Below, one piece after another: positions 166 through 59,007 of a stretch of DNA of 64,000 bases. Both the position numbers and the translations under genes were made by a program. The DNA comes from Odontesthes bonariensis. Lineage: Eukaryota; Chordata; Actinopteri; Atheriniformes; Atherinopsidae. The stretch is taken from the NCBI RefSeq assembly GCF_027942865.1, contig NC_134524.1, positions 2,764,536-2,828,535 of the forward strand. Reading direction: 5' to 3'. The first letter of the stretch is position 1; each line of letters starts with the position of its first letter. The notes below the pieces were generated by a model that saw nothing but the letters and a program-made list of their open reading frames with translations, made no database searches and was not told the origin of the DNA.

Positions 166-2181
166 TAAGCTATGGTCCTGGCTGAACAGTAAGTAGCCAC
201 CAGAAATGCAAGACAGTCGCTGTAGCCACTGAATGTTATGCAGGACGGTCTTCCTGAATGCAGATGGTCATCAGTGAAGTCACCTCCCCCGAATGAACCC
301 CGTCATGTTGTGTATATGTGGCGAAACATGGCGAGCCAGCCGGGGGGGCTGTTAGCGTGACAGAGACAGTCTCTCAGTCAGAGACCAACCTCAGAAGTTA
401 AACCCAGTTTGTAACTGAGCTGACTCACAGTGGAAGTCACATGTTAGATCTGGTTCTCAGGGAGTGTTTCCTGCTGAGATCCAGCCGTGTCTGATCAGTG
501 CTGCAGTTTCTTGTTTTGCATTATTCTCTCCTCTTACTCAGACTACACCTGAAACTAATCAAAAGCAGGAAGCAGCATGAAGAATTGTCACATCAGCCAA
601 TTCAAATAAGTAATAACAAGTGCTTGAAAAAGGCAAATGAATGAAGGGACGTAAAAATGAGGAAAATCCCCTCAGTCCCCAGAAGTCTTTCTGTGGTTCC
701 TGCTCCCAAAGCACACTGAGCGCTGCTTCTGTGCTTCAGTGTTTTTCAGGAGTTTGTGTTCACTTTTTCCACCTCCGTAATGATCTGTAAAACTGAAGGT
801 TGTTGAAGAACACAGTGCTGGATCCAAACAATAGTGTAATGTTCCAATCTGACCTTCTGGTGGCAGCGTCGTCTCACTGGGGATTTCTCATTGATTCTTT
901 TAAAAGCGGCAATCAGCGTCAGATATTCATGATCTGAAGGGGATGAACTCCTGTGCTTCTGCAGAATACCTGAGTGTCCTCCAGTGCCACCATCAAGTTA
1001 GTGTTTTTCACCATATATGTTTATATTTACACTAACTTATAGATTTAATCTGCTGTAACTCCTGGTTAAATGGAGGTTTACCTCTTTCTTTAACTGCAGA
1101 ATTCCACCGTAATATAATTCTAGTTCAAAAAATAAAATGATAAACTCATGTGTCGGCTTTAGTTATTTATAAATGTAGATTGATGATACGTATTGGATGG
1201 AAGCTTTTGACTCCGGATGAAATGTTTTGGGTTCAGGTGGAACAGAACCAGGTCAGCACCATTATCCCAGAATTCTTTGCATCTTCTTCAGATTTTCTGT
1301 GTGAAAACAGAGACCTCTGAAACATGTTTCTGAGCTGGTGTGGATGCTGCTGGAAGGACCTCTGCTGGTCACTCTGGTAGGTTTTCACATCTGTTATGAT
1401 GCGTAACCGTAGCAATGGGAAAGTTGTTCACCTGTTGGTTTAGCTAACTGAGCTTCACAAAAGCCCAAGAAATGGCTGGAAAAATACCCCAAATCTGGAT
1501 GAACTGAAGAGGAGACGTCTAGGATGCAGAGCAGGAACAACCTGGAGGAAAAGGAGGAGGAAGTTTAAAGCATTTCTTCCCTCGATCATCAGGGGAAATG
1601 TGAGGTCACTGGTGGATAAGACAACTACATGCACCAACTACACACTGAAAGGTTGAATCCTAAACTTTCTCTTTTCATTTTCTTTTCATAGGGACTGAGT
1701 TCAAGCCTTTTCCAGGTTCCACTCAATCTTTTTCAGTGTTCAAAGTTTGAAACCAACGAGTCTGAGACTTTATTGGGATACAGAGCATGAGACAGAACAC
1801 CGAGCAGCTGAACAAAGCAGAGACAGTTGATGAGCAAAGCTGCTTCACAGAAAACATGTTGGAAGACTAAAAGATAGTGTCTGTGCTCATCAGTCTCAGG
1901 TAAAAAGTGCCAAGAAAGCAGCACAAAGCAGCGGAGGCATCGCTCAGAGGGGCAATAAACTGCTTTGGGACTCGGAGATCATATGTTCAAGTCCTGTGAG
2001 AGCTGCTCAAAGAGTTTAAATGTCTCCAGGTTTTAGAGGCCAAAGCAAAGAGTGAAAGGCTTTAAGGTGGAAAGAGTGCACATTTTAATAAAGACGGATT
2101 AATTGAGATTCCTGTAAATGAACAAGAGGACAGTAACTGGACTGGGGCCACCTCCCAGGAGCTCCTCCTCTTATCTCTAAG
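166..2181. other. Non-coding spacer of the duplicated unit
   Basis: No gene is recognised here. The sequence is repeated at 48237-50181 with a few substitutions. It contains short open frames without recognisable domains, which are equally open in both copies simply because the copies are nearly identical. A weakly tRNA-like stretch near 1930-2010 does not fold properly and was not called. Confidence 0.6.
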
Positions 2182-2358
2182 GTGAGCTCCTTCTCTAGGC
2201 CTGACCCCTCGGGTGTGTCCCAGTTTCCCTTTCCTGGGAGGTGAGCTCCTTCTCTAGGCCTGACCCCTCAGGTGTGTCCCAGTTTCCCTTTCCTGGGAGG
2301 TGAGCTCCTTCTCTAGGCCTGACCCCTCGGGTGTGTTCCAGTTTCCCTTTCCTGGGAG
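2182..2358. repeat. 59-bp minisatellite, 3 units
   Basis: Units start at 2182, 2241 and 2300, and the next partial unit begins at 2359. Each unit starts GTGAGCTCCTTCTCTAGGCC and ends TTTCCTGGGAG. The right copy of the segment (56882-57176) has five units, so unit number changed after the duplication. Confidence 0.92.
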
Positions 2359-2758
2359 GTGAGCGTTCACAATCTGGTGCTGCTCCATCAAGGTCTTTGT
2401 GTCAATCCAAGCCTGACCCCACCCCTGAGGCAAGGTGCCAGGGGAGACCCTACTAGGAAGGTAACCCCCGACAACAAAGCTCTCAGGTTCCTGGGAGAAC
2501 TCAAAGCCCTCCATCACGTTACGGATTCTATTCGTGTTGTGAATGATGGCATCACGGTTTACACTGAGAGCCAACAGGACAGCACCTCTGTTTAGAGCCG
2601 TGAGACGGTTGTTGGACACTTCTTGCTCTCTTAGATATATTTGGACGATGGGAGCAGTTCCTCTGCAGCAGTCAACCAAAAACTGTCCAAAGGTGATGAG
2701 CAAAGCGTCCTGTAGCTTCAGACCTCGGTCTCGTCTTAGTTCAGTTAGCTCCTCCCAG
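2254..2758 (-). pseudogene. Unrecognised open frame ending in the minisatellite; possible exon remnant
   Basis: On the minus strand a frame runs from about 2758 to a stop at 2254. The first in-frame ATG is at 2703, but the frame continues upstream to a possible splice acceptor (a CTAAC branch-like motif followed by CAG), beginning WEELTELRRDRGLKLQDAL. The first ~110 residues are of ordinary composition, rich in L, N and E; the last ~35 are encoded by the 59-bp minisatellite. The right copy at 57072-57521 keeps the frame with three or four amino-acid changes. I do not recognise a family. It may be part of a gene of which only one exon is visible, or a chance frame kept open by recent duplication. 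Confidence 0.3.
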
Positions 2759-2940
2759 CTGAGTTGTTAGGATCCGTAACCCAGTCGAGGCTTTTTCAGG
2801 TGCTCACCTGTTATATATTGTCCCCCAAAGTGCTGCAACACTTCATTTCAGTCATTTCAGAGGGGGAACATGTCCAGGTTGGCCCGTTCCAGCTGTTGTT
2901 TCCAGAGGTGCATCTTTGGGCAGAATCCATTGTCGGTGCT
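2359..2940. other. Spacer with no gene seen on the plus strand
   Basis: Apart from the minus-strand open frame described separately, no promoter, RNA gene or repeat was recognised. The sequence is duplicated at 57177-57760. Confidence 0.5.
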
Positions 2941-3288
2941 TGTTTTTTTTGTTTATTTTTCTCTCTTTTTTTCTCTCTCTCTCCCTCTTTTTCTCTCTCC
3001 TCTCTTTTTTTTCTTTCCCTTTTTCTTTCTCTCTTTTTTCTCTTTTTTTCTTTCTTTTTCTTTTTAATTTTTTTTCTCTTTTTTCCTCTTTCTTTTCTTT
3101 TTTTCTCTCATTTTTTTTCTCTTTCTCATTTGTTTTATTTTTCCTCTTTTTTCTCATTTTTTTCTCTTTTTTCCCCTTTTTTCTTTTTTCTCTCTCTCTT
3201 ATTTTTTTCTCTTTTTTAAATTTTTTCTCTTTTTTTCTCTCCTTTTCTTTTTCCTCTTTTCCTTTCTCTCTCTCTCTCACCAGATGGC
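2940..3288. repeat. Pyrimidine-rich low-complexity tract
   Basis: About 350 bases are almost entirely T and C on the plus strand, as irregular T runs broken by CTC and TTTC. The right copy (57760-58115) has expanded into a perfect (CT)n run at 58023-58112. Long open frames across this tract encode only F/S/L or K/R/E runs and are composition artefacts. Confidence 0.9.
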
Positions 3289-4164
3289 GCTGATCAGGTG
3301 ATTGATGACGTCAGAAGCGCAGAACGCATTGTTCGGTGGAACCACGGTTCAGAGGTCTCTCATCGTTTGAACACTTGGGGGCGCTGTTCTCTACAAAAGT
3401 AAAATGAATCCCAAACTGTCACAATTGAACTCAATTCATTGCTCTTTTCCATGGCTTCTGACAGGAAACGTTCTGTGGCTTGGGATCACTTCACCTTGGT
3501 TTCTCCTAATAAGCTGATACTATTGTACAATATACTGTTGTGTGATGCAAGATGTTTGCTTGTTTTTGTTTTTCAACTGTAAATATAAGCTTTATTATTA
3601 TTATGGGTATGCATGCTAATATACTTCTCTTCTTAAAATAAGGGGGCAGCACATTTAAGAATCTAAGGTATGTAGGACAATACATTCATTTTGGACTTGT
3701 TTATTTAGCGCATATCCCAAACAAAGCGCTTACGGCCATTATTCCACACATTTTAAAAAGTGATGGCTTATCTCTTTCTTTTCTGTCTGCTGAAGGTGCG
3801 GTGTTTGATTTGCCCACAAGAACTGGCCTTTCATGCCAACACATCCTCCATGATGGGACACCTCCGGTCCATCCATCCTGCTGAGAGCCCTCGGACAACA
3901 AAGCCAACCTTCAGCCTGTAACCTGGGGCGGCCATCTTGGACCGGTCATCGCTCCACTCAGTGTAATCTGTCTGGCTGGAGCCATGAAGCGTCAGCGCAT
4001 TTAATCAATCATAAATCGCTGAATACAAAACTGATTTTCAACGGATTTTTGTTTCTGCAAACGTGATACATGTAGGCATGATACGGGACACATGACACGT
4101 ATTTTAACATTCATAGTAGGCTCAGCAGTAATAGAATATTCTGCTCTGTAACATATGTGATGTA

Positions 4165-4165
<1 letters not shown>
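3289..4165. other. Non-coding spacer, nothing recognised
   Basis: This part is repeated at 58116-58965 in the right copy. Short open frames lack domains or splice context. No gene, RNA or mobile-element terminus was seen. Confidence 0.5.

Positions 4166-4203
<38 letters not shown>
4166..4203. repeat. (TA)n microsatellite at a copy-difference breakpoint
   Basis: A run of TA dinucleotides. In the right copy the matching position carries an L2 LINE fragment (59008-59399), and the following 1.1 kb of the left copy is missing there. Confidence 0.9.
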
Positions 4204-4205
<2 letters not shown>

Positions 4206-5303
4206 CACTAATATATGATAAAGAAGCAGATTGTGTACTACTCAGATATTTTATTAAGTTGAAAAATGAAGAAATTATACATTATACATAAAAGATAAAA
4301 CCCAAAAGACAGAAGTTATATATCGGAAAATAATTGTATCTCTTTCAGGCTTGTTGCTCCATCAGTGTTAAAACAAGAATAAACGTTTCATGTAAAATCT
4401 ACTGAACATTGTATGTTCTTTATGCTGAGCTGTAAATAAACAGTTGGAATCATAATTCACTGTATCCTGTATATATTTGCTGGGAGAGACTTTAGTCCAG
4501 TTTAGATTACAGCAGATTATCAGAAAATATGCAGCTGAACTCAACACAAACAGCTCTGATGGCTGCAGAAGATGCAGTCTGAGAGAAGGAGATTTATTTC
4601 ACTTCTACAGCGATTTATTTATGCTTTGCATGCAGGTTTTATCATAATAACTCAGTGGTGGCTCCTGGCAGATTTATCAGAGGGTCATCAGCTCTGCTCC
4701 ATCACTTTTTGTCTTTGTGCGCTCGTTGTTCCTGCTCCTTCTCACCCGGAGATCCTCCTACATTTTTATTAATGACTTTACAAATGCCCGTTTGTCACAG
4801 TTGATGAGGAATGCCGCTGTTGAAAGGAGTAATTAGCATTTGGGCCCCGAGCAGACCTCCACCGATTTGTAATCATTAAAGTTATTTTAGCCTTAAGGAG
4901 TTTCTTTTGTTTTGTGACTGAATGTTACAAATGAAGACATTTCCCCATAACTTAGAGCCTCCACCCATCCTTCAGAGACTTTAGGCATGTGTCCAAGATG
5001 GCGAGGGGAAAGACTCTCACACTCAGGGGCGCCTCAGGGCTCCAGGCTGGGACCTCACACTGACAGAAGGTAAAACACTTCAGTTTCTGCCTCAGAAAGA
5101 AAGCTCAAAGCTGCACCTCAACCACACCTTACAGCATCTCGTTGGGACGGGGAGGCCATGAGACGGGAAACTTTATCATTAACTCGGTGAATGTGATTTT
5201 ATGATAAAGTTTTATCAACATTTAAATGAATCAAACAAAATCAGTTTTGTAAATGAGCTCAGTTGAATTCAACTCAACAATACTCATTAATCCCTGAAGG
5301 TAA
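4204..5303. other. 1.1-kb block present only in the left copy
   Basis: The right copy jumps from the TA tract plus L2 fragment straight to sequence matching 5304 onward, so this block was deleted there or inserted here. The stretch near 4262-4300 resembles 30700-30770 (GTTGAAAAATGAAGAAAT followed by ATACATTATACAT), which suggests an interspersed repeat. No gene is recognised. Confidence 0.6.
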
Positions 5304-6436
5304 ATTATATCCCTGCAGGATTAGTTATTACTAAAGATCAGCTGCTGTTACAGAGAACTAAATAAAATGTAATCAGCTGAAGTGTAGCAGAGAGGAAGGT
5401 GTGGTAGAAACCTTCAGAGGTCTCCATCAGTGGGTCGGGCTGTTGTTTCTGTAGCTTAGCAACAGCTCAGCTGATGATGTCACACACAGCGTCAGCAGGT
5501 AACTCAGGTGAACTCTGTCAGCAGACAACATGGACAGAAACTCACAGCCAGCACTTCAACATCTGGGGTGCAGAGACGCTCCTTCTAAGCTTTCCAAGCT
5601 TATTTGAATCTAAGTTGTATAAATGTACTTTTAAAATACTACGAATAAGTTCAGTTTGTGTATTGTACAAAAATTGTAATGTACTTAGCCGCTTGTTCTG
5701 TATATTTTTTTGTTTGGAATAAACTAAACTAAACTAACAAAAAAAAAAAAAAAAAAAGGAACAAAAACAGCCTGAAGCAGGTTTAAATGATCAGCGTTTG
5801 AGTTTGAGGTACAATCCAATAAAGTATAAGGGTGTCGTGTGCACACTCTGCCAACGGGTGTTCTGGGTAAGTTGTGCAGCCGTCGGGGCAGAAGAAGAAG
5901 AAGAAGAGTTGTGGACTAAAACAACGTGAGCAGCGCGACTGAGAGCATCTGAGATTACAGCAGAATGTCTGTTTGGTAAATCTGCTCAGTACCTGATTGT
6001 GTGAGTAACTGAGCAGTTGTAGAAGCGACAAACAGATCAGTTCAGTTTTCTCATGTTAAACGGTTCAATTCAAAGTAGCGTTAGCCTGCTTAGCTGCCTT
6101 TTCCCTCAGTGCAGCCATGACGTTTGGACTAAAATGCGTTCACACGTCTGATTCCAACACAACAGACATTTGAAAGAGTTTCACAGCTTGAAGTTGATCC
6201 TCGTGCCCTTTTAGTGTTGGAACAGCCTTAACTTTCAGCTTCAGTCATCAGCATCATACAGCTGTCTGGGAAGTACAGGGAACAACTCCAAACCTTTTTC
6301 AGACTGCGTTAAAGATTTCTGGGTCTTTGGGGAAGATGATAAGGGTCAACTTTCCCTCGTAACCAAATACACATTTTCTTCAAAAATATCTGTGTAGCAA
6401 GAACATGAAAAGCATGAGAAAAGTTAACATCTGACC
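5304..6436. other. Spacer with retroposon-like A-rich tail
   Basis: Near 5715-5758 an AATAAA-like motif is followed by AAACTAAACTAAACTAAC and then about 19 A residues, the look of a retroposed 3' end. The A-run is shorter in the right copy (59852 region). Positions 6243-6407 form the inverted arm matching 1-165. No protein-coding gene is recognised. Confidence 0.45.
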
Positions 6437-6442
6437 TTTAAT
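6437..6442 (-). terminator. Candidate poly(A) signal of the 16-finger gene
   Basis: TTTAAT on the plus strand is ATTAAA on the minus strand, about 490 nt downstream of the zinc-finger stop codon at 6927. The same hexamer at the same distance follows the other two zinc-finger genes (48037-48042 and 60543-60548). Confidence 0.45.
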
Positions 6443-6926
6443 GAAATGCAGAACAATGAAATACAGACGAGTGTAAAGCTCGACTTCACATCAAACTGAA
6501 ATGATATATTGCTTCTTCAGATGTTTACAGAAATACCCACAGCTGGTGCAAAGCTACTTTGTGGATCTTAACTTTAAACAAAACAAACATGTTCAGTATA
6601 ACAGAATAAACATGTTTCTACTTTCAAACAGACTGCATTTTGTTCTGTCCATCAACTCACAATTGATGCCATGTTTGTCTTGAACGTCGGGAGATCCGTC
6701 CCCAGTTAAAGCAATCCCAACAAATTATAAAGCACTTTCAATGGTTCGTCAAACATGTGCTCCCCACAGAACATTCAGAACTAAAGTCCTAACAAGAGAA
6801 GGTGGTAATCCACAAAGAAGATTTTTAATCTGAACAAAGGAAAGGCTTCTGATCGGTAGTTCCAGTTGCTGCTCCCAGGTGAATATTTGCTTATCTGCCG
6901 TAAAAATTGATGTTGATTTAAGCCAA

Positions 6927-8297
6927 TCATTTCTCTGCATTGTGACTACGTTGGTGTGTCTTTAGATTACCTAATTGAGTGAAAGCTGCCCCACACTGAC
7001 CACAGCTGAAAGGTTTCTCTCCTGTGTGAATACGTTGGTGTGTCTTTAGATGAGATAATGTAGTGAAAGCTGCCCCACACTGACCACAGCTGTAAGGCTT
7101 CTCTCCTGTGTGAATACGTTGGTGTGTCTTTAGACTACCTAATGTAGTGAAAGCTGCCCCACACTGACCACAGCTGTAAGGCTTCTCTCCTGTGTGAATA
7201 TGTTGGTGTGTCTTTAGACTACCTAATGTAGTGAAAGCTGCCCCACACTGACCACAGCTGAAAGGCTTCTCTCCTGTGTGAATACGTTGGTGTGTCTTTA
7301 GATTAGCTAATGTAGTCAAAGCTGCCCCACACTGACCACAGCTGAAAGGCTTCTCTCCTGTGTGAATACGTTGGTGTCTCTTTAGATGAGATGAATGAGT
7401 GAAAGCTGCCCCACACTGACCACAGCTGAAAGGCTTCTCTCCTGTGTGAATACGTTGGTGTGTCTTTAGATTATTTAATGTAGTGAAAGCTGCCCCACAC
7501 TGACCACAGCTGAAAGGCTTCTCTCCTGTGTGAATACGTTGGTGTCTCTTTAGATGAGATGATTGAGTGAAAGCTGCCCCACACTGGCCACAGATGAAAG
7601 GTTTATCTCCTGTGTGAACACGTTGGTGTGTCTTTAGATTAGATAATTGAGTGAAAGCTGCCCCACACTGACCACAGCTGAAAGGTTTCTCTCCTGTGTG
7701 AATATGTTGGTGTGTCTTTAGACTACCTAATGCAGTGAAAGCTGCCCCACACTGACCACAGCTGAAAGGCTTCTCTCCTGTGTGAATACGTTGGTGTGTC
7801 TTTAGATTAGCTAATGTAGTGAAAGCTGCCCCACACTGACCACAGCTGAAAGGTTTCTCTCCTGTGTGAATACGTTGGTGTGTCTTTAGATTAGATAAAT
7901 CAGTGAAAGCTGCCCCACACTGACCACAGCTGAAAGGTTTCTCTCCTGAGTGAATACGTTGGTGTGTCTTTAGATTATTTAATGTAGTGAAAGCTGCCCC
8001 ACACTGACCACAGCTGAAAGGTTTCTCTCCTGTGTGAATACGTTGGTGTCTCTTTAGATGAGATGATTGAGTGAAAGCTGCCCCACACTGACCACAGCTG
8101 AAAGGTTTCTCTCCTGTGTGAATACGTTGGTGCGTCTTTAGATGAAATAATCCAGTGAAAGCTGCCCCACACTGGTCACAGCTGTATGGCTTCTCTCCTG
8201 TATGAATCCTCTGATGATACCTCAGATTTGATTGTTTGATAACTTTCCCACAGTCCTTACAGCAGTGCCATCTGGATCCCTCTTGGGCTCTACGTTT
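6927..8297 (-). CDS. C2H2 zinc-finger protein, last exon, 16 fingers
   Basis: Probable nuclear DNA-binding protein built of tandem Kruppel-type C2H2 fingers. The exon encodes KRRAQEGSRWHC and then 16 fingers of exactly 28 residues, joined by TGEKPF/TGEKPY linkers, ending NAEK and TGA. Finger 1 is distinct (CKDCGKVIKQSNLRYH); the rest share the frame C-GQ-CGAAFT-x-L-xx-LK-x-HQRIH. Variation concentrates at the helix positions that contact DNA (-1: T, Q, D, H, A, G; 2/3: NN, SN, AN, GS, SH, FH, GN; 6: T or R), while the backbone is nearly invariant, as expected for concerted evolution. One finger has AALT instead of AAFT. There is no ATG at the start: the frame enters through a splice acceptor (pyrimidine tract then TTGCAG at 8303-8298), so this is an internal start of the last exon. 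Upstream exons were not identified, so an effector domain (KRAB- or FiNZ-like) cannot be assessed. Confidence 0.9.
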   Translation of the reverse strand, partial: KRRAQEGSRWHCCKDCGKVIKQSNLRYHQRIHTGEKPYSCDQCGAAFTGLFHLKTHQRIHTGEKPFSCGQCGAAFTQSSHLKRHQRIHTGEKPFSCGQCGAAFTTLNNLKTHQRIHSGEKPFSCGQCGAAFTDLSNLKTHQRIHTGEKPFSCGQCGAAFTTLANLKTHQRIHTGEKPFSCGQCGAAFTALGSLKTHQHIHTGEKPFSCGQCGAAFTQLSNLKTHQRVHTGDKPFICGQCGAAFTQSSHLKRHQRIHTGEKPFSCGQCGAAFTTLNNLKTHQRIHTGEKPFSCGQCGAAFTHSSHLKRHQRIHTGEKPFSCGQCGAALTTLANLKTHQRIHTGEKPFSCGQCGAAFTTLGSLKTHQHIHTGEKPYSCGQCGAAFTTLGSLKTHQRIHTGEKPYSCGQCGAAFTTLSHLKTHQRIHTGEKPFSCGQCGAAFTQLGNLKTHQRSHNAEK

Positions 8298-8607
8298 CTG
8301 CAATGACAGAGAGGAAGAAGACTTAGATCCTTTTGAAGTTCACACAAAAGATTTCTCTAAGCTAACCTACGCTAACCAACATATTCTAACTGGAGCTGGA
8401 CAGACCGAGCCACACAGGTCTCAATATCTCAGATCAAAAGTGAACGCTGAGGGTGCGTTTATAAGTGCCCTCAGTTATCAGCACTGTGCTCTGATGTGTT
8501 CTGCACACGTTCAGCTTTTTAAGCAGTAAACTCTGCAGCTCAGAGAGAGGAGATGAAACCAGGAAACACTTTGCTGTTTTTAACCAGGAAAAACACAAAC
8601 TAAGCAA
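8298..8607 (-). other. Intron side and 5' flank of the 16-finger exon
   Basis: The sequence upstream of the acceptor includes the pyrimidine-rich stretch before CAG. It is shared with the right copy (61480-61787) and, inverted, with 46030-46265 and 41232-41325. In the inverted copy, 4.7 kb containing LINE sequence lies in the middle. No upstream coding exon is recognised. Confidence 0.5.
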
Positions 8608-9743
8608 GTGGAACATTTATTAAGTGACTCTAATATCGATCTACTTGAAATATCTGAAAGTTGGTTGACACATTCATCATCATCTACAGCAGCTAGCAGC
8701 ATTCCAGGATATAATGTATGTAGAAAGGCTAGAGAAGCAGGGCGAGGTGGGGGAGTATTGATCTATGTCAGAGAGAAGTTTCAACATGAACTAATAAGGT
8801 GGCCTAAAGACGTTTACGCTGAGTGTATTGGTCTAAATGCATCACTCTGCTCTGCAATTTGTCTTTTACTGTGATTTGTGTGGATCCACCTCAGCAAAGG
8901 ATGTGTTTTATGATCATCTTCAGACAATCTTAAATCACTGCAACTCGAAGAAGGAAATCATCCTACTCGCTGATTTTAATATCAACTGGAACATCAAGTC
9001 AGGGAAAAAATTACAATTTGAGACAAATTATAAAAGGAGCGACAAGAATAACTAATACGTCAAATACAACAATTGATCTTATATTTACTAATAATCCTGA
9101 AAGACTCTGTAAGACTTTTAATCTATTATCTGGCCTGTCAGATCACAATTTTATCTTGTGCTCATGGAAAATTAAGAGGAAGCATTTAATGGCATCCACC
9201 AGACGTCACCAGTTCTACTTCATACCCAAAAGCCAGCAACAATTCCTGAATGAGGAAATCCAAAATCTAGAAGGTCTGAAAAATAACGACATTGAGGCTC
9301 GCTCAGATAACAATAATAATAATAATAATAATAAATTTATTTGTATAGCACCTTTCACAGAAAATAAAATTCACAAAGTGCTTCACAATACGATGCAAGT
9401 CAACATTTCATATACACACATAAGAAAACACAGTAAATGCAGAAAAGCATGAGGCTACAGAGCAGATGGGCACTTTAAGAACAGATAAAAGGTATTTTAA
9501 ATAGGTGGGACTTCAGATTCTTTTTGAAAATGTCTAAAGAAGTTGCAGACCGTAGACAGAGAGGAAGAGAGTTCCAAAGAGTTGGAGCCACAACCTCAAA
9601 GGCACGATCACGCTTTGTCTTTAGACATGCTGCAGCTTGGGGATGTCGTCAGGAGACATGGCATTAGTTTTCACAGCTATGCTGATGATACACAGCTTTA
9701 CATTGCCGTGTCTCCTGATGACCTAGAACCAGTTAACGTTCTT
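8608..9743 (+). pseudogene. L2-type LINE, 5' half (endonuclease and part of RT), broken
   Basis: Translated fragments match the apurinic-endonuclease-like domain of L2-clade LINEs (ESWLTHSSSS; GVLIYVREKF; LLADFNINWN; SDHNFILCSW) and then, after an internal replacement, the reverse transcriptase motif SYADDTQLY at about 9677-9703. Frames are broken near 8870 and 9050. Between the endonuclease and YADD parts, about 9308-9620 holds an AAT microsatellite and an unrelated repeat, so the N-terminal RT is missing. The LINE continues at 16319 on the far side of a Kolobok insertion: PVNVL before the TTAA joins LNCILDIKS after it. The right copy is at 61788-62923. Confidence 0.85.
9308..9620. repeat. 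AAT microsatellite plus unclassified interspersed repeat
   Basis: An (AAT)n run at 9308-9333 is followed by ATTTATTTGTATAGCACCTT and sequence of a kind I recall from many fish intergenic regions. It sits inside the L2 LINE where RT coding is missing. It also occurs at 62497-62800. Confidence 0.55.
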
Positions 9744-10026
9744 TTAAAGATCCTATGACATGAAAATAAATGGAGGCTTTTATATATTTTTAGAGGCTTT
9801 AGTGGTCCCCTTATACTGTATTATACTGTATATAGGCAACATTCTGCCTTGGTGCAGAATTACAGCCAGTCCCAAAATGAGTTTTTCTTAGGATCCTCAG
9901 AATGAGCTGTTTAGGGCCTGCAGCTTTAAATGCAAATTAGGAGGAGAAAGACGGGGCAAAGCGGAGGGTGGGGGTGTGGCCTTACTTCCGCCCTTGGTAC
10001 CATGCGCAAATGCGTTGTGAATCGCT

Positions 10027-11188
10027 ATGGCACGTAGAACAGCAGTCGTTCAAGCTTTTCAATTTGACCCAGAGTCTGATCCAGATGGAGAAGAAGTTGA
10101 AGAAGTTGAAAATCAGCGACTACAGCAGGACGTCTCTGAATGGTTAGTTAAGTATTTCGCCGTTAATTTAGTTTGTTTTGCTTATGTGTTGTTACAGATA
10201 TCATCATGTGGGCTTAGCTACCTATGCTGAAGTAGTTGTATGTCTAGTTATATCAGTAATCTTTGTCATAAAAAAGAGCTATGCAGCCTTCACATCCATG
10301 TAAATCATGTTGCACATTACTCATGATTTATTCCTGAAGATAAATGTTCACCGTATGAAAAATAATATTTGATTTACTCCAGAGCACATTTGATGTTTAC
10401 TTACTCAACAGCCACAAGCTAGACACTAACAAGCCATTATACCTTTTTATGTTGTTTATATCCACCTACATTTTTTACATAGGTGCCATTGTGGAAAATG
10501 TGCAACTATGCCCACAGAAGTGGAGAATATTTGCTGCCTTGAGATACCACAGGTAACATTCTCACCACCTCACTGGAAAATAATTTGTCTCTTCTTTCGG
10601 CAACTAATTTTGCTAATAAATGTCACTTACCGTTTCTAATTCTAAAAAAGGTTACTACACGACTTCGGGAGGTCGAAGAACAGCTCCCATGCATGGTAGA
10701 CCATTCTGGATTGGAGCCTGTCTGCCTAAATGTCTACTCACTTCAAAATGCCAGCCAAATATACAGAGCAGACTATGGTCCTCTACAGTTCAGAGAAATA
10801 CACCGGTAAATTGTGCATTGTTAGATAAGTTAATAACAGAAGTTTAGAGTTTTGACTTTGTATTCCAATAATTTATTTATTTTTGTACAGCGAGGGATGG
10901 GGTGGGGGGGGGGGGGGGACACAAAACAGACCGAATATGATCCATTGGTGCATAGAATTATTTTTTCACACACACAATGATACATTCAGAATTTAATATC
11001 TAAAATTTCTGAATCAATTGTTCAGTCGCTACAGGTATCTGTCCTGTCGCAGTTTTGTGAGCTGGTGCTGGGGCTTCTTGGGACGCAGAATCCGGGTTGT
11101 AATTCCAGCCTGTGTGGTCCTGCGCATCCGCTCGGAGTTTCCTGATGAGGAAGGCCACTATGTTGGGTTTAAACGGCCCCCTGTTTGA
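10027..11188 (+). CDS. P2X7-receptor C-terminal (ballast) domain protein encoded by the transposon
   Basis: Four exons with GT/AG borders: 10027-10142, 10483-10552, 10651-10805 and 11026-11188. Together they give 504 nt, 167 codons plus TGA, with phases agreeing at all three joins. After an acidic start (MARRTAVVQAFQ, then a DPESDPDGEEVEEVE stretch), exon 2 encodes WCHCGKCATMP with a later CC pair, exon 3 a linker with CMVDH and VCLNVYSLQ, and exon 4 RYRYLSCRSFVSWCWG and RIRSEFPDEEGHYVGFKRPP. From memory, human P2X7 ends with WCQCGSC and, at its C-terminus, RIRKEFPKSEGQYSGFKSPY, so homology to the zinc-coordinating ballast domain is strong. There is no channel region or membrane segment. Its role in the transposon is unknown; zinc, nucleotide or DNA binding are possible. 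A shorter reading ending at TAA 10807-10809 is rejected because it loses the conserved tail. Confidence 0.88.
10806..11025 (+). other. Intron 3 of the P2X7-tail-like gene, with a G-run
   Basis: The donor follows CACCG at 10805 and the acceptor TTCAG ends at 11025. The intron holds a G-rich run near 10897-10918 that could form a G-quadruplex or simply be slippage-prone. Confidence 0.7.
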
Positions 11189-14100
11189 ACCTTGAAACAA
11201 AGCTGGCAATGACCTCCTCCTTGTCCGGCCTCTCATACTGCGCTGATAAGTTTTCTGGGACAGAGATGGCCAACAGCGCATCGTTGTATGGTGTCGGGTT
11301 AAAAAAGACTTCATCGAAGATTAGGTCCATCATGTCAGAAACATAACCTGTATCATAAAGCACAAGCAATATCTCCATTTAATTGGTTGAGTTTTGTTTT
11401 TACTGTGCATTTGTATGTAATCCATTTTTCTTCGAGAGAAATAAATGTTAAAATTCCAAACAATGTGTCATTTTAATTGATTTGAACCATTACCAAAGGT
11501 CGCCTTTGTCTTTACTGGTTTAGCTCTGCACTCTCCCTTCCGAGACTTTGGAAAGGAGAGTTTAAAGAGGGGTACACCTTCCTCCGTTTCGGCCTGTGGT
11601 CGTTCCGCATTTTCATTGAAATGCATAGCAGCCAGGTAGAGTCTGGAAGTACAAGATAAAAATATTTGTTCATATTGACAGATATTTTAAACTAAAATTC
11701 CTAAAAGTATTGAGTAAAGATTTGTTTTACCTGCACAGCATTCCAATAAAGGGAAACACTACATTTTTTGGAGCAAAACGAAGGATGACTGCATGGAAAG
11801 CCTCCAAAGATGACGTTTGGTGGTGGGGGCTCAGTTTTTCCACATCCTTCAGCGTTCTTTTCTTTGTCAGCAGAGACTCCAACTTGTAGAAAGCTGGAGT
11901 TGCTGCAAACAATAACAAAATATCTTATTAGAAAACAATACAGTAACAAATATCACAGCAATGACCTCGTTGTTTGCTTGTCTGTTTGCTGTTTTAACAT
12001 TTTGCCTGCATATTGGTTGAGATACCTGCTTGGAGCCATTTCTTTTTGTCCGTTGTTGTGCGGATTGCATGCTCACACTTGGGGTAAAGAGGATTCTCAT
12101 GCGTGTGGATATCTTGCACATGGTTGAGGATCGCGTTCCACTTGGCAATTCTCTCTGGCCCTGAGGTTGAATTAGCTGCAGTCCAGTATATGTGGTTGTT
12201 GATGCTTTTCATCCACTTGTTCAGTTTCTCACAGTCTTTCATCTTACATAGGACTTCCAGTTTCTTTGAAATTCCTAAAATGAAAGCAAACAACATTCCA
12301 CTTAGTAAAGAGTAAGAGTGACAACTATGCTGTAGCAATTCAAAAACAATTTCAAAGCATTTGATAATATTGACTCATAATGTCAGCATTTGACTGTCCA
12401 ACATCACTGCTGTCAATTTTTCTGATGACACAGCAGTAGTTGACCTAATTTCTAAGAACAATGAGCAGGCTTACTTGAATGAGGTAGATAGACTTTCAAA
12501 CTGTTGCCAAGACAACAACCTACTCCTATTGTTACCAAGACTAAGGAGATATATATAGATTTCAGGCAATATCAGCAGAAAGTCTACCAACCAGTCCAGA
12601 TTAACGACTCTGAGGTGGAAAGAGTAGATCTTGGTGTTGATATTTCTGAACATCTGACTTTGACCAAACATGTTGATTCACTGGTGAACGCCAGCGTCTT
12701 TTCCACCTCAGATGCCATAAGTACTTTAGGTTACCTGAAAACCTGAATAGTTACCTTTTGCGAAGTGCCACACATCGTAGTACTGGGTGATGTTTCTCTC
12801 CCTGAGGAACTTTTGAACTTGAGGATGACGATCGGTGACAATGCAATCCAGTTTGACGTCACGCGACTCGAGCAAGGCCAGACTCCTCGTCAGGCCCTCT
12901 TTCTCCATATAGCAGCTACCACCAACCTCGTTGCTCTGTCACCACAGAAAAAAAACACATTAGTAGACAATGTATTATGGACCTTGATTTTTAAATTACA
13001 ACAAATAACCCCTTTACAGAGTCAATTTCAACAACTCACCTGGACCAACTGAATGTCCACAACGGTGTTAGTTTGGAGATCCATCATGGTGTAACTCCCA
13101 TATTTTGCAGAGTGACCTGTTAAAAATTGGGTTTAAATAATGACACTTGGAATCACTATTCAATACATATTATGTATTCTTATATTTAGGTGCAATTCAT
13201 AACTTCACATAACAACACACTGCTTAGAGCCATCAGACCTGGTCCCTGGCTTTTGTGTGTCTCAGAGCCAGCACTATTACACTCTGATTGCTGGCCTTTG
13301 GCTACAGATAGTTGGAGCTAAAGACCTTGATAAAACCACCCCCTGCCTGCTGTCATTCCTTTGAACTTCAAACAATATCACTGTACAAAATACAATACTT
13401 CAGTCAAGTAACAATACCTGGAGAATCAGCCCTCATGTCACCACCGAGTATGACTTTTTCCTCCCGAGTAAGCCGCTGCAGATTCACATCCTGTGTGACT
13501 TTCCAGTGGTGAATAACTGCAGGTTCAATGAAGGCTCTGGCATGCCGGCGAAATGTTTCATACCGAAACAACTCCAGCTTCATTGCCTTGAAGACCTGGG
13601 TGTGGAGGGGAGAAATAATACATGTAATTTGATATAAATACAAGTATTTCAGTTACGGTATCTACAGTTGCACATACTTTACCTTTTCTATTTGTATGAA
13701 AGATGCACCACTCAGGTACACAGCGGCAGAAAGGTGCAGGTTTCCAGCTGGCGTGCTACCCAGGATAGGCTGGCTATTCCATTGTCTTCTAAATGTGCAG
13801 TGGGGACACCGCTGCTTCACAGACAGGAATGTCCCCAGCCTTTGAGTCTTCACATCACATGCCCGTGTGCAGACCGGACATGCATTAAACAACTGCATGA
13901 TGCAGTTCTCGTACACTATGTACTTCTTGATGTGTGTGGAAGTGGAGGACTCCTCTCTATATAAAACCACAAAGAAAGCAAAACACATTTTGAGTTGATC
14001 AGATTGAGCTTTCATCTGGACAGTACTTTAAACCAGCACACTCCTTGAAGCCGGATGAATAATCTGTATGCACATAAATAATCCTAAAAGTAATGCTATA

Positions 14101-15976
14101 AACAACAACAGTCTCGCTGAGACCAATCCTTCATGTTGGAATGCCATACAATTAAAAAAAAATTATGAAAGTTCTCACAATCCCTACATTTTCTTCACAC
14201 TCACACACAGATAATGATAACTTACAGCCTCAGTGTAGAGTTTTCGGACGCTGTGACAGAGTCTGCAGGGTCATAAGTGGAATCCTGTCCCTTTGGGGTA
14301 TCCACTAAAGAGCTTCCCTCCAATGCATCATCTTCCTGCTCCTCCTCAAGATCCAATCGAGGTCTTTTGGATGGTCTCTTTACTGGTGTTGATGACAGGA
14401 ACAAAGGGTCTACATTGGACGTCCCAACACCAAAGTCTTTGCAGGAGACAGTTGCCTGGACACCTGCAACAAATATCACCATTGTACCGTCAGGATGTAT
14501 GTTTGTTTGATATGTCAAGTCATTCATGTGTATGACATATGATGTATTCATACAGTGACAGCACTCTTCTAACCCAATTTCACATGTGGGACAATAAAGT
14601 TAATCTCATCTTATTGAAGGTGGCTAGAACATACCTTCACTTCTTTCTTTTTTTTACTTTATTGCCAATAACGTATAGGCAATACAAACAAACACACCAC
14701 ACAGAAACAGACAAATAATAACAATAACAATATTATACATAAAACACACATATACAAATAAAATTGAAAATTAAAATAAAATTAAAATAAAAATACATTA
14801 GAAAAAAAAAGGTTCACCTTGATTGCAAGCTTATGTTACATTCGTCTTATACAATTATATGCTTAACCAATATAAAGAATGACAGGTGTCCATCTCCTAA
14901 GGAATAGGGGTAATTTTAACTGTAGAATGGCAGTCATATTTTCCATCACTTGGACTTGATTACACCTCTGTCTCCATTGAGCCACTGTATGAGGCTCAGG
15001 CTGCATCCAACGCATTGTAATAATTTTTCTTGCGATCATTAGTAAGACATGCAAAATATAACACTGGTCTTTAGTAAAGTTTTGTTCTGTTGTTTTCTCA
15101 AGCAAAATAAATACAGGGTCAAAATACCTTCACTTCTGATGTGGGCCTTCAAAGTCCTAAAGGATAGCTGTGTGGCTACAGTATGTGTTTCCAGTTGGTC
15201 TGTCTGGCAGGCAACATCCCTTGAGAGAGGCAGCTGAATAAAAGCACTTGATGTGCTGGCCTGTGTAGATACAACAAGGTCAAATTAGTACAAGTTATTA
15301 CTTTGTATATCTTCCAAATGCAAGTTTGAAGACTTAGCCCTATGCTAATCGCGATTTTGACATTCTCAGCTGATTGCTCTGGTTTGCAAAGATGGACGTA
15401 GTGCTAGTCATTTTAATCAGGGGAAAGGCAGATATCGTGCGCGCCATAACACCAACAGCAGGACGGCTATCAAAACAACAAATAAGTACACAACACTGGC
15501 GTTACAGTAAATGAGGTGTCCACTCGCATACCTCATGCTATTTACAGTTACATTAGCGACAGTAGCTGCATTAGCTATTAGCTGCAGAGCTAACGATACT
15601 TTCAGGACACTTTCTTGTGGTAACAAGCTATTTAACTATACTGTACATACATAAAAGCAAGACAATTATAGAGCGTTAAATTACTTACTTGTCCGAGGTC
15701 TGTAGTTGGGCCAAAGAGAGTTGGTACTGATCCAGGGTTCATTTTAAGACGATCGGCAAGGCCAGCTCGGTATTGGCCCAAGTTTTGGAAACAATCCTCC
15801 GTGAAATGTTTGGCGCACACATACACAAATCTCTTCTGTTCTTTTGTCACTTTCCCAGAAAAAACAAAATCTGACCACTGGCTCTTTAGGGGTTCTGATG
15901 CAGGAGCTTTAAAAAGATTTTTTAGATCCGTTGTACATCCATGTACAGAGCAAATGTTATGCTTTCGATCAGCCAT
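11169..15976 (-). CDS. THAP-domain Kolobok-like transposase, 11 exons, apparently intact
   Basis: Exons, 5' to 3' on the minus strand: 15976-15689, 15260-15128, 14463-14226, 13956-13683, 13595-13418, 13116-13040, 12935-12755, 12274-12026, 11902-11731, 11642-11494, 11347-11169. They sum to 2118 nt (705 codons plus TAA), every junction has GT/AG borders and all phases agree. Residues 1-96 form a C2CH THAP zinc finger (C9, C14, C54, H57, with W34 and P85), which would bind the transposon ends. A second cysteine cluster, CPVC...CPHC (246-273), follows an acidic, basic-patched linker. The catalytic core shows GGDMRADSPG (D364) and VTDRHPQV (D431), then YYDVWH, typical of Kolobok DDE cores as I know them; the third acidic residue was not assigned. 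No stop or frameshift was seen, so it may be functional despite two LINE fragments in its introns. Its last codons overlap the opposite-strand gene. Confidence 0.88.
12380..12735 (+). mobile_element. Rex-like LINE RT fragment inside a transposase intron
   Basis: Plus-strand translation gives SDDTAVVDLISKNNEQAYL, VTKTKEIYIDFRQYQQKVY and LGVDISEHLTLTKHVDSL, a non-LTR reverse transcriptase around the catalytic DD motif. It lies in the intron between transposase exons 7 and 8, antisense to the transposase. Its ends and target duplication were not resolved. It is only a fragment and has frame breaks. Confidence 0.75.
14645..15123 (-). mobile_element. L1-like LINE 3' fragment at a transposase splice donor
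   Basis: A 5'-truncated insertion flanked by 14-bp direct repeats ATACCTTCACTTCT at 14631-14644 and 15124-15137. On the minus strand it encodes a C-terminal LINE ORF2-like piece (VLLMIARKIITMRWMQPEPH) and ends in an A-rich tail at its left end. The duplicated target contains the end of transposase exon 2 and its GT donor, so the insertion left a working donor in place and created a second one downstream. Confidence 0.78.
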
Positions 15977-15999
15977 GGTGTGTTAGATATCCTACGCAG

Positions 16000-16075
16000 A
16001 AAAATCAAGATGGCGTTGCGCAGACTTTCAACTGATTTTACAATGAGCTGGCCAAAGAGCTGTGGGCGGGGAAAG
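16000..16075 (-). promoter_or_regulatory. Candidate transposase promoter (YY1-like site, GC box)
   Basis: About 30-40 nt upstream of the transposase ATG the plus strand reads CAAGATGGCG, a YY1-type motif, and GTGGGCGGGG, a GC box, lies near 16061-16070. There is no TATA box. Motif matching only. Confidence 0.35.
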
Positions 16076-16318
16076 GCAGTTTATTGGCTCTGGGTGGAAA
16101 CAACCTCCACGTCATAAGCGGGCACACGTCATAAGCGGCGGCTTTCTCGATCAGGCCTTCTGCATGGTCACATTTCCAAAGGCAGAGAATAATTTCCAGT
16201 GCATGGTTTAGGTCTATCGTCATTTTTAGACACTGGGGGACCGCAGGCAGGCTAGAGGAACTCATATTAATGTTAAACAACCTTAAAAAGTGAAAATTTC
16301 ATGCCATGGGACCTTTAA

Positions 16319-37308: not shown

Positions 37309-39838
37309 ATTGTCTTAATGTAGTAAAATGATTTAAGTTGATGGTGTTCCACTGACTCAGATGAGATTTATGGGATATTGCACACAGTGGCTGTCGGTCT
37401 ACAGAGTTATTATTACATTTTTTTTCTGAATTTGATCAAAAAGCTACAAATATTTTGAACTGTGACCTTAGTGGGTCTTTAAAGAAGCATTTTAAAGTTC
37501 ACAGGGATTTAAATAAAAAGCACAGTAATGAGTTTAATGGAATGTGACTGGATGGTTAAAAACTGTGCAGACCAGAATGGAGCAGAACCAGGAGCAGAAC
37601 CAGGAGCTGAACCAGGAGCAGAACCAGGAACTGAACCAGGAGCTGAACCAGGAGCAGAACCAGGAGCAGAACCAGGAGCAGAACCAGGAGCAGAACCAGG
37701 AGCAGAACCAGGAGCAGAACCAGGAACTGAACCAGGAACTGAACCAGGAGCTGAACCAGGAGCAGAACCAGGAGCAGAACCAGGAGCAGAACCAGGAGCT
37801 GAACCCGGAGCTGAACCCGGAGCTGAACCCGGAGCTGAACCCGGAGCTGAACCAGGAGCTGAAGCAGGAGCTGAAGCAGGAGCTGAAGCAGGAGCTGAAC
37901 CCGGAGCTGAACCCGGAGTTGAAACAGGAGCAGAACCAGGAGCAGAACCAGGAGCTGAACCAGGAGCAGAACCAGGAACTGAACCAGGAGCTGAACCAGG
38001 AGCAGAACCAGGAGCAGAACCAGGAGCAGAACCAGGAGCAGAACCAGGAGCAGAACCAGGAACTGAACCAGGAACTGAACCAGGAGCTGAACCAGGAGCT
38101 GAACCAGGAGCAGAACCAGGAGCTGAACCAGGAGCTGAACCCGGAGCTGAACCCGGAGCTGAACCAGGAGCTGAAGCAGGAGCTGAAGCAGGAGCTGAAC
38201 CCGGAGCTGAACCCGGAGCTGAACCCGGAGTTGAAACAGGAGCAGAACCAGGAGCAGAACCAGGAGCTGAACCAGGAGCTGAACCAGGAGCAGAACCAGG
38301 AGCAGAACCAGGAGCAGAACCAGGAGCAGAACCAGGAGCAGAACCAGGAGCTGAACCAGGAGCTGAACCAGGAGCAGAACCAGAACCAGGAGCTGAACCA
38401 AGAGCTGAACCAAGAGCAGAACCCCTCCACCAGGAACAGAGCCGGCTCATCCTCTGGGTCCACCGGGCCACAGGTCAGTGTGGAGGAGGTTTTTATTTTA
38501 TTTCTTATTTATTTGGTTAGGACTCTGCACATTAATCAACATATCAGCAAAGCATCCATGTAAATATGTCTGAGTTAGCACAGCTGCTAAATTTCATCCG
38601 TTGTCCTCAGGCAGGTATCATAAAAACATACAGACAATACACCATGACAAAAAACTAAAGAACAAACAAACAGAAAATCTTTAGAAAGATTCACATCAAA
38701 GTTAAAGGGACAGTTTGCTTCTTCTGACATGAAGCTGTGTAACATCCCATATCAGCAGCATCATTTCTGAACATCTTCTTCCCCCCTGCTGCGTCCTGTG
38801 AGCAGAGTTCCAGCCTCGTTTTGGTGTTGATGAAGGTAGTCCTGCTAGTTTGCTGGGGTCCCGAAAATAAAGCGTTTTGCTTCTCAAAACAATATGCGTT
38901 CCAAAGAGTAATACATTTGCATCACAAAACCCTCCCTCCAGAAAAAGTTACAGCTCACATCGCTTGGCCCTATTTTCTCTCCCTTCGTATCACTGCCTGC
39001 TGTGTAAACCGTGCAGACCGAAGTGCAGCCCGAGCACTCCCCTGCTTCCGAGCAGCAAACACCGTAACAGCTGCGGCTATCGCTAGGTGGCTGTTAGCAT
39101 TGATATGAAGGGAGGCAAAAGTAGTGAGGGATACTCCATCATACTTAGCTGCCTTCCCTCTAATTTTTCATGTGTCTGGACAAACACACCAGCTCCCTGA
39201 GCACACTGAGGAGCACTGTGAGCAGCATCAGATGTGCACGCTGTGGCCACACACCTGTATCACACCTGTTCAAAACCCTGGATCATAGCCAGTTACATGG
39301 CTTATTAAAAGAATCAAATCACAGCAGCAATTTCCATTAGTTTACTTTTAATAAAAGCGATTTGGCCCACTTAAAATGAAAAAGACAAAAATCTTGTTGT
39401 TCATGAGATGTGTAGTATGTTATCTGTTATATGTGAGAGTCATGCTCGCAGCCTGGTTTTGCAGAGTAGACCTTTCTCACTCGAAAAAGAAAAAATCTGA
39501 CCCAGTTTCAGCGCTTGTTCTTCTGTTTGCACTCAGACAGCCATTCCATCCTAAAAGAACCGCATTTCTTTTTTACTTTGGCTCGGTGAGTGGATGTGTC
39601 GCTGGCGCTGCCCCTTCGTTTCGCCATGATAAGGGGTTGCGTCTCACTGTTAGCTAGCTAACAGTGCACGGTGCGTATGGGCAGGGCACATATGCAAGCA
39701 CCATCAATGCTCTGATTGGCTGCATAGCGTAAGTAAGCCGTATCATTGGTAGAATTAATACGTTTATGGTGAATTTTATTTTATGCGCTGCATAGATGTT
39801 CTTGTGCGCTGAGAATGTGCGAGCAGCTCAGAGGGAAC
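37309..39838. repeat. Inverted block, right arm (partner 17190-19375)
   Basis: Matches the reverse complement of the left arm except for the longer 12-bp array and minor indels. The outer end GCAGCTCAGAGGGAACGTTG resembles fish hAT termini. No target duplication was found. Confidence 0.75.
37575..38430. repeat. 12-bp minisatellite, long allele (about 70 units)
   Basis: Tandem GAGCAGAACCAG-type units with variants carrying CTG, CCC and AAG. Higher-order repetition is visible: a roughly 300-bp pattern near 37680-37925 recurs at 37995-38235. Frames of more than 285 codons are open on both strands and are artefacts of the unit length. Confidence 0.95.
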
Positions 39839-45957: not shown

Positions 45958-46265
45958 AAATATTGTAGCTCAAGTTCCTTTTCAGAGTTTCATCATGACA
46001 AAAAGAATTAGTAAAAGAGCAAAATGCAAGAGTTTACTGCTTAAAAAGCTGAACATGTGTAGAACACATCAGAGCACAGTGCTGATAGCTGAGGGCACTT
46101 ATAAACGCACCCTCAGTGTTCACGTTTGATCTGAGATATTGAGACCTGTGTGGCTCGGTCTGTCCAGCTCTAGATAGAATATGTTGGTTAGCGTAGGTTA
46201 GCTTAGAGAAATCTTTTGTGTGAACTTCAAAAGGATCTAAGTCTTCTTCCTCTCTGTCATTGCAG
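45958..46265 (+). other. Intron and splice acceptor before the 15-finger exon
   Basis: Ends with the pyrimidine-rich CTTCTTCCTCTCTGTCATTG and CAG at 46263-46265. No upstream exon is recognised. Confidence 0.55.
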
Positions 46266-47552
46266 AAACGTAGAGCCCAAGAGAGATCCAGATGGCACTG
46301 CTGTAAGGACTGTGGGAAAGTTATCAAACGATCAAATCTGAGGTATCATCAGATAATTCATACTGGAGAGAAGCCATACAGCTGTGGTCAGTGTGGGGCA
46401 GCTTTCACTACATTATTTCATCTAAAGAGACACCAACGCATTCACACAGGAGAGAAGCCATACAGCTGTGGTCAGTGTGAGGCAGCTTTCACTGAATTAG
46501 GTCACCTAAAGAGACACCAACGTATTCACACAGGAGAGAAGCCATACAGCTGTGGTCAGTGTGGGGCAGCTTTTACTACATTAGGTAGTCTAAAGGCACA
46601 CCAACGTATTCACACTGGAGAGAAGCCATACAGCTGTGGTCAGTGTGGGGCAGCTTTCACTGAATTAGGTAGTCTAAAGAGACACCAACGTATACACACA
46701 GGAGAGAAGCCATACAGCTGTGGTCAGTGTGGGGCAGCTTTCACTACATTATCTGATCTAAAGACACACCAACGTATTCACACAGGAGAGAAGCCATACA
46801 GCTGTGGTCAGTGTGGGGCAGCTTTCACTACATTAGGTAATCTAAAGACACACCAACGTTCTCACACTGCAGAGAAACCTTTCATCTGTGGTCAGTGTGG
46901 GGCAGCTTTCACTACATCATCTCATCTAAAGGCACACCAACGTATTCACACAGGAGAGAAACCTTTCATCTGTGGCCAGTGTGGGGCAGCTTTCACTACA
47001 TTATCTAGTGTAAAGAGACACCAACGTATTCACACAGGAGTGAAACCTTTCATCTGTGGTCAGTGTGGGGCAGCTTTCACTAGCTTAGGTAATCTAAAGA
47101 CACACCAACGTATTCACACAGGAGAGAAACCTTTCAGCTGTGGTCAGTGTGGGGCAGCTTTCACTACATTAGGTAGTCTAAAGAGACACCAACGTATTCA
47201 CACAGGAGAGAAGCCATACAGCTGTGGTCAGTGTGGGGCAGCTTTCACTGAATTAGGTAGTCTAAAGAGACACCAACGTATTCACACAGGAGAGAAGCCA
47301 TACAGCTGTGGTCAGTGTGGGGCAGCTTTCACTACATTATCTGATCTAAAGACACACCAACGTATTCACACAGGAGAGAAGCCATACAGCTGTGGTCAGT
47401 GTGGGGCAGCTTTCACTACATTAAATAATCTAAAGACACACCAACGCATTCACACAGGAGAGAAACCTTTCAGCTGTGGTCAGTGTAGGGCAGCTTTCAC
47501 TACATTATCTCATCTAAAGAGACACCAACGTAGTCACACTGCAGAGAAATGA
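46266..47552 (+). CDS. C2H2 zinc-finger protein, last exon, 15 fingers
   Basis: Paralogue of the 16-finger gene in the opposite orientation. After KRRAQERSRWHC come 15 fingers of 28 residues, ending HTAEK and TGA. Helix residues differ from those of the minus-strand paralogues: E at -1 is frequent (TELGSLKRH) and TTLSDLKTH recurs. Two finger pairs are repeated within the array (5-6 and 12-13), pointing to internal unit duplication. Departures from the consensus include CGQCEAAF in finger 3, CGQCRAAF in finger 15, a TGVKPF linker after finger 9 and TAEKPF after finger 7. The frame enters through a splice acceptor; the first codon seen without splicing would be TTG, so this is not the protein start. 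A candidate ATTAAA poly(A) signal lies at 48037-48042. Confidence 0.9.
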   Translation, partial: KRRAQERSRWHCCKDCGKVIKRSNLRYHQIIHTGEKPYSCGQCGAAFTTLFHLKRHQRIHTGEKPYSCGQCEAAFTELGHLKRHQRIHTGEKPYSCGQCGAAFTTLGSLKAHQRIHTGEKPYSCGQCGAAFTELGSLKRHQRIHTGEKPYSCGQCGAAFTTLSDLKTHQRIHTGEKPYSCGQCGAAFTTLGNLKTHQRSHTAEKPFICGQCGAAFTTSSHLKAHQRIHTGEKPFICGQCGAAFTTLSSVKRHQRIHTGVKPFICGQCGAAFTSLGNLKTHQRIHTGEKPFSCGQCGAAFTTLGSLKRHQRIHTGEKPYSCGQCGAAFTELGSLKRHQRIHTGEKPYSCGQCGAAFTTLSDLKTHQRIHTGEKPYSCGQCGAAFTTLNNLKTHQRIHTGEKPFSCGQCRAAFTTLSHLKRHQRSHTAEK

Positions 47553-48042: not shown

Positions 48043-48236
48043 GGTCAGATGTTAACTTTTCTCATGCTTTTCATGTTCTTGCTACACAGATATTTTTAAA
48101 GAAAATGTGTATTTGGTTACGAGGGAAAGTTGACCCTTATCATCTTCCCCAAAGACCCAGAAATCTTTAACGCAGTCTGAAAAAGGTTTGGAGTTGTTCC
48201 CTGTACTTCCCAGACAGCTGTATGATGCTCATGACT

Positions 48237-50176: not shown

Positions 50177-50181
50177 ATTCC

Positions 50182-50633
50182 TGTACAAAAGGCCCCTCTG
50201 TTTCAGTTCTTTCTACGTCTGAATAAGGCTGTTTTAGTTTAATGCGTTATTTGGTTGTAGTTTCGGAGTGTCCACCAGGGGGCACTGCAGCCTGTTATGT
50301 GCTCGTACCGCCAGTAGAGTTAGACATGGTCTCAGAAGTTCGTTTCTCCTGGTGAATGCTTCATGCAAAGTGTGTGTGATTCCTGTCAAGTGTGCGTTTA
50401 TGCAGAAAGACCACACAGACACACCTATATAATACGTGTCACACCTTTTGTCATCCTGTATTCATCTGATGTTCAATACAAACCTAAACGTCAACCCTTG
50501 CCTCCTCATTCTCTCCATCCATCTGCACATTCATCCTGGCCCAAGTAGTGCTCTGGCCGGCACTCCAGAGTAGTGACAGCTTAACTCCTAAAATAGAGCC
50601 CATACAGTCCTTTACTTCATTTCCTCCACAACA
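50182..50633 (+). repeat. 5' LTR of the BEL/Pao element
   Basis: 452 bp starting TGTACAAAAGGCCCCTCTGT and ending CTCCACAACA. A TATATAAT at about 50427-50434 is the likely promoter element. Confidence 0.95.
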
Positions 50634-56807: not shown

Positions 56808-56881
56808 ATTCCTGTAAATGAACAAGAGGACAGTAACTGGACTGGGGCCACCTCCCAGGAGCTCCTCCTCCTATCTCTAAG

Positions 56882-57576: not shown

Positions 57577-57759
57577 CTGAGTTGTTAGGATCCGTAACCC
57601 AGTCGAGGCTTTTTCAGGTGCTCACCTGTTATCTATTGTCCCCCAAAGTGCTGCAACACTTCATTTCAGTCATTTCAGAGGGGAACATGTCCAGGTTGGC
57701 CCGTTCCAGCTGTTGTTTCCAGAGGTGCATCTTTGGGCAAAATCCATTGTCGGTGCTTG

Positions 57760-58115: not shown

Positions 58116-58117
<2 letters not shown>

Positions 58118-58967: not shown

Positions 58968-59007
58968 TATATATATAGATATATCTATATCTATATATAT
59001 AGATATA

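Follow-up and report, generated by a model that had tools for sequence, protein, structure and literature searches.

A Kolobok transposon of Odontesthes bonariensis carries an intron-split KolX gene convergent with its transposase gene

A complete Kolobok element between TTAA sites

The DNA analyzed here, which we call the window, is a stretch of 64,000 nucleotides from the Odontesthes bonariensis genome. An earlier note on it had described a complete Kolobok transposon, with TTAA-flanked inverted repeats around a THAP transposase, and this description stands. The element occupies 6,567 bp (positions 9748–16314), and 14 of the 20 copies that we fetched from the genome align with it end to end, in a single piece, at 98.7–99.8% identity. 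Its terminal inverted repeats, AGATCCTATGACATGAAA at 9748–9765 on the plus strand and AGGTCCCATGGCATGAAA at 16297–16314 on the minus strand, are imperfect and match at 15 of 18 bases, and beyond each lies a TTAA target-site duplication (9744–9747 on the left, 16315–16318 on the right) that is present in the copy comparison. The termini read AG...CT in all 19 aligned copies, and are therefore of the 5′-RR...YY-3′ type that has been given as the rule for Kolobok elements (Kojima and Bao, 2022; PMC9587614). When the flanks are joined at one TTAA, a single reading frame spans the site, with one stop about 10 codons past the junction; since one frame is restored in this way, the insertion at 9748–16314 is a clean one. 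Judged by eye, the restored frame looks like that of a LINE reverse transcriptase with a YADD motif. From its identity and anatomy, we are highly confident that this is an autonomous cut-and-paste DNA transposon of the Kolobok superfamily, of the KolX-carrying (Kol0) kind. The piggyBac superfamily, whose members also use TTAA sites, was considered and rejected, as the 705-aa protein matches THAP alone in Pfam, with no match to a piggyBac-type transposase.

Two convergent genes with overlapping coding ends

The model of the transposase gene comprises 11 exons on the minus strand and encodes 705 aa, with GT/AG borders at all ten introns in the window copy. Exon 1 (15689–15976) carries the THAP domain, its frame matching the Pfam model with an E-value of 8.9e-11, and is followed by exon 2 (15128–15260), exon 3 (14226–14463), and exon 4 (13683–13956), in which CPVC...CPHC looks zinc-binding by eye. 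No Pfam model matched the catalytic part of the protein, where we recognize by eye a putative first D in GGDMRADSPG of exon 5 (13418–13595), a second D in IVTDRHPQ of exon 7 (12755–12935), and an E in SLEAFH of exon 9 (11731–11902). Exons 6 (13040–13116), 8 (12026–12274), and 10 (11494–11642), together with exon 11, which includes the stop codon (11169–11347), complete the model. The segment at 14631–15137, bounded by direct repeats of ATACCTTCACTTCT (14631–14644 and 15124–15137), is likely an insertion inside the transposase gene, and each of the 14 copies with a one-piece alignment has it. The second of these repeats contains the splice donor of exon 2; because the duplicated target includes this donor, the insertion would have left it in place on the exon side.

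On the plus strand lies a gene for KolX, a protein with the cytoplasmic ballast fold that is encoded by Kolobok elements of the Kol0 lineage (Kojima and Bao, 2022; PMC9587614). Exon 1 (10027–10142) encodes an acidic N-terminal part, and its end is conserved in two diverged relatives, L041 and L042, described below. Exon 2 (10483–10552) encodes WCHCGKC...ICC, with the first cysteines, and is placed by its GT/AG borders, the Pfam match, and alignment; exon 3 (10651–10805), placed by GT/AG borders and alignment, supplies, beyond an insertion, the last of the three cluster 2 cysteines. Exon 4 (11035–11188), encoding IPACVVLRIRSEFPDEEGHYVGFKRPPV and the stop, is placed by GT/AG borders, the Pfam match, and a match to PDB chains. 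A poly-A signal of the AATAAA/ATTAAA type downstream (11440–11445, plus strand) is a consensus match only. The earlier note had read a plus-strand gene of four exons, with WCHCGKC in exon 2 and RIRSEFPDEEGHYVGFKRPP in exon 4; the exon number and both motifs are borne out, while the length of 167 residues has to be corrected, as the predicted product has 164 residues plus the stop. All three introns have GT/AG borders in the window copy. Transcription and splicing of both gene models are predicted from the sequence.

The coding sequences of the two genes overlap tail to tail on opposite strands over 20 bp (11169–11188), so that their stop codons cross, and an overlap of equal length, 20 bp, occurs in L041, as does one of 23 bp in a further relative, L040.

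The resemblance to the P2X7 tail that had been drawn in the earlier note was confirmed by profile search, in which residues 25–160 of KolX matched Pfam P2RX7_C (PF20478) with an E-value of 8.2e-13 and 49.1 bits, well over the cut-off of 23.5. Solved P2X7 chains in the PDB matched as well (best E-value, 1.3e-05). KolX shares with the P2X7 ballast the motifs WCxCxxC, CC, and FP...G.Y.GF, and alignment with the single-exon relatives described below shows that it keeps seven of the eight ballast cysteine columns. One of the seven is out of register because about 12 residues are inserted between the cysteines of cluster 2, behind the CC pair and where exons 2 and 3 meet. The eighth cysteine is replaced by V (IPACV for IPSCC). 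The consensus of this zinc-coordinating cysteine domain, or ZCD, has been described as three cysteine clusters with seven to eight cysteines (Rump et al., 2020; PMC7016195). Unlike P2X7, KolX has its ballast divided among exons 2–4 instead of one exon and has no channel part, and it shares 31% identity with the human ballast and 30% with the O. bonariensis one. All 51 P2X_receptor matches of the genome are on contigs other than C24, which holds the window.

Near-identical copies throughout the genome

Using the first 395 bp of the element as query, we obtained 40 listed matches (40 of 573 candidates were scored), of which at least 25, the window included, cover the whole query at 99–100% identity, and one more does so at 97%. 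The best 20 other copies were fetched, and genes were counted in the window copy and 18 of these, L015 and L023 being excluded as they are split by other insertions or cut. TTAA was found on both sides in all 19 aligned copies, and 16 distinct pairs of flanks were distinguished among them, the sharing pairs being the window copy with L010, L013 with L014, and L018 with L019. KolX is open at 164 residues in 15 of the 19 copies and the transposase in 12, with both genes open in 11. Because the copies are near-identical, we infer that this Kolobok family has probably been active recently.

Full-length copies without the plus-strand gene, which the earlier note had named as evidence against its reading, were not seen among the 19: the two copies that lack KolX, L018 and L019, are 5,378-bp deletion forms with shared flanks, missing KolX exons 2–4 and the end of the transposase. 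In L020 and L028, KolX is altered, yet most of the gene is kept. A still shorter form of 621 bp (C3:37170170–37170790) consists of both element ends only. This form and L018/L019 look like derivatives that would need the enzyme in trans.

The window also contains a direct segmental duplication, in which positions 1–2116 correspond to 48072–50185 and 2108–10820 to 56808–64000, with 94–99% identity in the longer plain matches. A second Kolobok copy, L010, starts at position 62928; its transposase is broken. We considered L010 as an independent insertion and ruled this out, as it has the same flanks as the first copy and sits in the segmental duplication.

Diverged relatives and constraint on KolX

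The KolX of L041 is 66% identical to that of the window over 154 codons, and its three introns are at the same places. Over these codons the comparison gave a pN of 0.195 and a pS of 0.781, and with L042, a close relative of L041, the values were 0.205 and 0.787, respectively. As synonymous change is saturated, these figures yield no dN/dS value between the families, only a ratio well under one, which points to strong purifying selection on KolX. A diverged relative that shares three intron positions and shows such selection argues that KolX is a real gene. The middle of the transposase has been lost in both L041 and L042, and the match to L040 was confined to exon 4 of KolX.

The P2X7 tail and single-exon relatives of KolX

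A search of the genome with the P2RX7_C profile, in which 150 of 595 candidates were scored, detected a one-exon tail at C7:6162286–6162756 (E-value, 4.0e-63). It lies some 10 kb past P2X exons, and we take it to be the tail of the host P2X7. No ballast was found in nine regions, each about 3 kb long and following a group of P2X exons, that were also searched for the P2X7 tail. Among the candidates scored there were at least 36 further single-exon ballast matches (profile start at or before 83 and end at or after 190), three of them with an internal stop; we read the sequences of 18 of the 36 plus one shorter relative, L062. P2RX7_C bit scores were 118 for the single-exon L045 and 61.6 for L041, compared with the 49.1 of the window KolX. 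Identity to both P2X7 tails differs slightly, being 32–40% for five single-exon sequences and 30–33% for KolX of the window type.

Some of these single-exon genes also have a transposase nearby. L047 and L048, which are copies of a single family, showed weak transposase matches on the opposite strand, and none was found within flanks of about 1.5 kb in L044, L045, and L046. With longer flanks, L048 revealed four transposase pieces (best E-value, 2.5e-08), and L045 one convincing piece (E-value, 9.7e-08) about 6 kb downstream, separated from KolX by a LINE-like frame of 513 aa. Thus, in both loci followed with longer flanks, the single-exon KolX is convergent with a distant transposase of the Kolobok type. 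A third type of KolX was observed in L060 (C20:7278400) and L061 (C18:32384250), which have a single exon, an insertion placed as in the window family, and IPSCA; it is possibly a link between the intron-split and single-exon lineages.

In a tree of 10 rows, five single-exon sequences grouped without P2X7, with weak support (58/51), while in a tree of 24 rows P2X7 fell inside the single-exon set, with 91/98 and 83/84 at two forks and long branches. Keeping the single-exon rows together was not rejected by the AU test, either with 23 rows (SE_L062 dropped; p = 0.215) or with 21 rows (SE_L060 and SE_L061 also dropped; p = 0.134). The trees are therefore suggestive, but not decisive, for a single-exon lineage as donor of the P2X7 tail.

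In P2X7, a single exon, exon 13, encodes the ballast (Rump et al., 2020; PMC7016195), and for this reason a spliced copy, or a donor gene without introns in its ballast from the start, fits better than the window family. The latter makes a poor candidate, as introns interrupt its ballast and one of the eight cysteines is missing, in contrast to the tail exon of P2X7 and the single-exon relatives in this genome. Hence, should the tail of P2X7 have come from a transposon, the single-exon type of KolX is likelier as donor than the intron-split type of the window. The earlier note had named a mobile element encoding the ballast alone as a plausible vehicle; our results support this in general, and make the window family, intron-split and with seven of eight cysteines, an unlikely donor. 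A fuller reading would be that the P2X7 tail exon came from a single-exon lineage of Kolobok KolX, coexisting with the intron-split one, and that the overlap of 20–23 bp has been conserved because it couples KolX to the transposase gene. We put this forward tentatively, our confidence in it falling short of even; if true, a transposon-to-receptor capture could be traced to one branch of KolX.

Comparison with published elements and domains

The pairing of a Kolobok with the P2X7 ballast and the idea of a P2X7 origin from it are already published: Kojima and Bao (2022; PMC9587614) proposed that a P2X4-like gene fused with KolX to give rise to P2X7, and considered NANOR a likely domesticated KolX. 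What we add is a family whose ballast is split by introns and is without one of the eight cysteines, set against the one-exon ballast of P2X7. The Kol0/KolX elements of that study, such as Kolobok-1_XT, resemble the window element in their TTAA sites, 5′-RR/YY-3′ ends, and the combination of a transposase with a ballast protein; the accessible text of PMC9587614 mentions neither introns in KolX nor an overlap of its coding sequence with that of the transposase, and the window element has both. NANOR-like or ZCD proteins are, like KolX, short and made of the zinc-coordinating cysteine domain alone, but they were described as genes, and "transpos-", "mobile", and "Kolobok" are absent from the main text of that report (Rump et al., 2020; PMC7016195). 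Our literature search found KolX named only by Kojima and Bao (2022), with no functional test in the accessible text of PMC9587614, and for Kolobok with P2X7, or for P2X7 domestication, it otherwise returned just a review whose accessible text names each in unrelated places. A search of the same literature for a Kolobok THAP transposase together with a second protein found none.

What KolX may do for the element

By analogy with known families, the minus-strand THAP/DDE transposase would bind the element ends and move the element into TTAA sites. KolX would be a small zinc-binding accessory protein of the ballast fold, kept because it aids the element's own propagation, and under the published proposal a relative of it would have joined a P2X4-like gene to give P2X7. 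Since KolX has been kept convergent and under constraint in several families, it may be a helper of transposition, and we consider the chances about even that it works with the transposase or with its complex with DNA.

The main rival to this is that KolX acts on the host and not on transposition, for example by blunting silencing or signalling. In the window family as well as in L041 and L040 the coding ends overlap by 20–23 bp, so the messages of KolX and the transposase would share antisense stretches, and a host-directed protein would be of use to an element if its convergent transcripts can form double-stranded RNA with each other. Apart from KolX, moreover, the ballast domain is known as a cytoplasmic region of P2X7. 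Short overlaps are common between convergent genes, which counts against such a role, and we regard it as rather unlikely. Lower still is the probability we give to KolX as a passenger, that is, a ballast gene of the host that a Kolobok picked up on one occasion and has kept without benefit. The direction of descent is left unsettled by the trees, one deletion form (two copies, L018 and L019) is without most of KolX, and the 621-bp form has both ends only; such forms, however, can be moved in trans. The strong purifying selection on KolX between families also speaks against a passenger, as does its occurrence with a transposase or its remnants in the window family, L040, L041/L042, and two single-exon loci. 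A chance composite, in which an old ballast gene came to lie between two unrelated repeat ends, is refuted for practical purposes, given that the 6.5-kb unit with both genes recurs at many sites with TTAA flanks.

A recent element that is intact, present in many copies, and open in both of its genes offers a system for asking what the ballast did before its capture by a receptor. Because a single genome holds a P2X7-like tail exon together with single-exon and intron-split relatives, the route of capture could be tested by comparing gene structures.

Other features of the window

Arrays with a period of 84 bp were observed at 6930–8339 (minus strand), 46224–47549 (plus strand), and about 60952–61503, the first two of which read by eye as C2H2 zinc fingers, their frames staying open for 470 and 442 aa, respectively. 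A 12-bp repeat at 37512–38560, GAEP-like, is open in several frames on both strands. Finally, a plus-strand open frame of 1,757 aa at 51022–56292 is, at a glance, retroelement-like.
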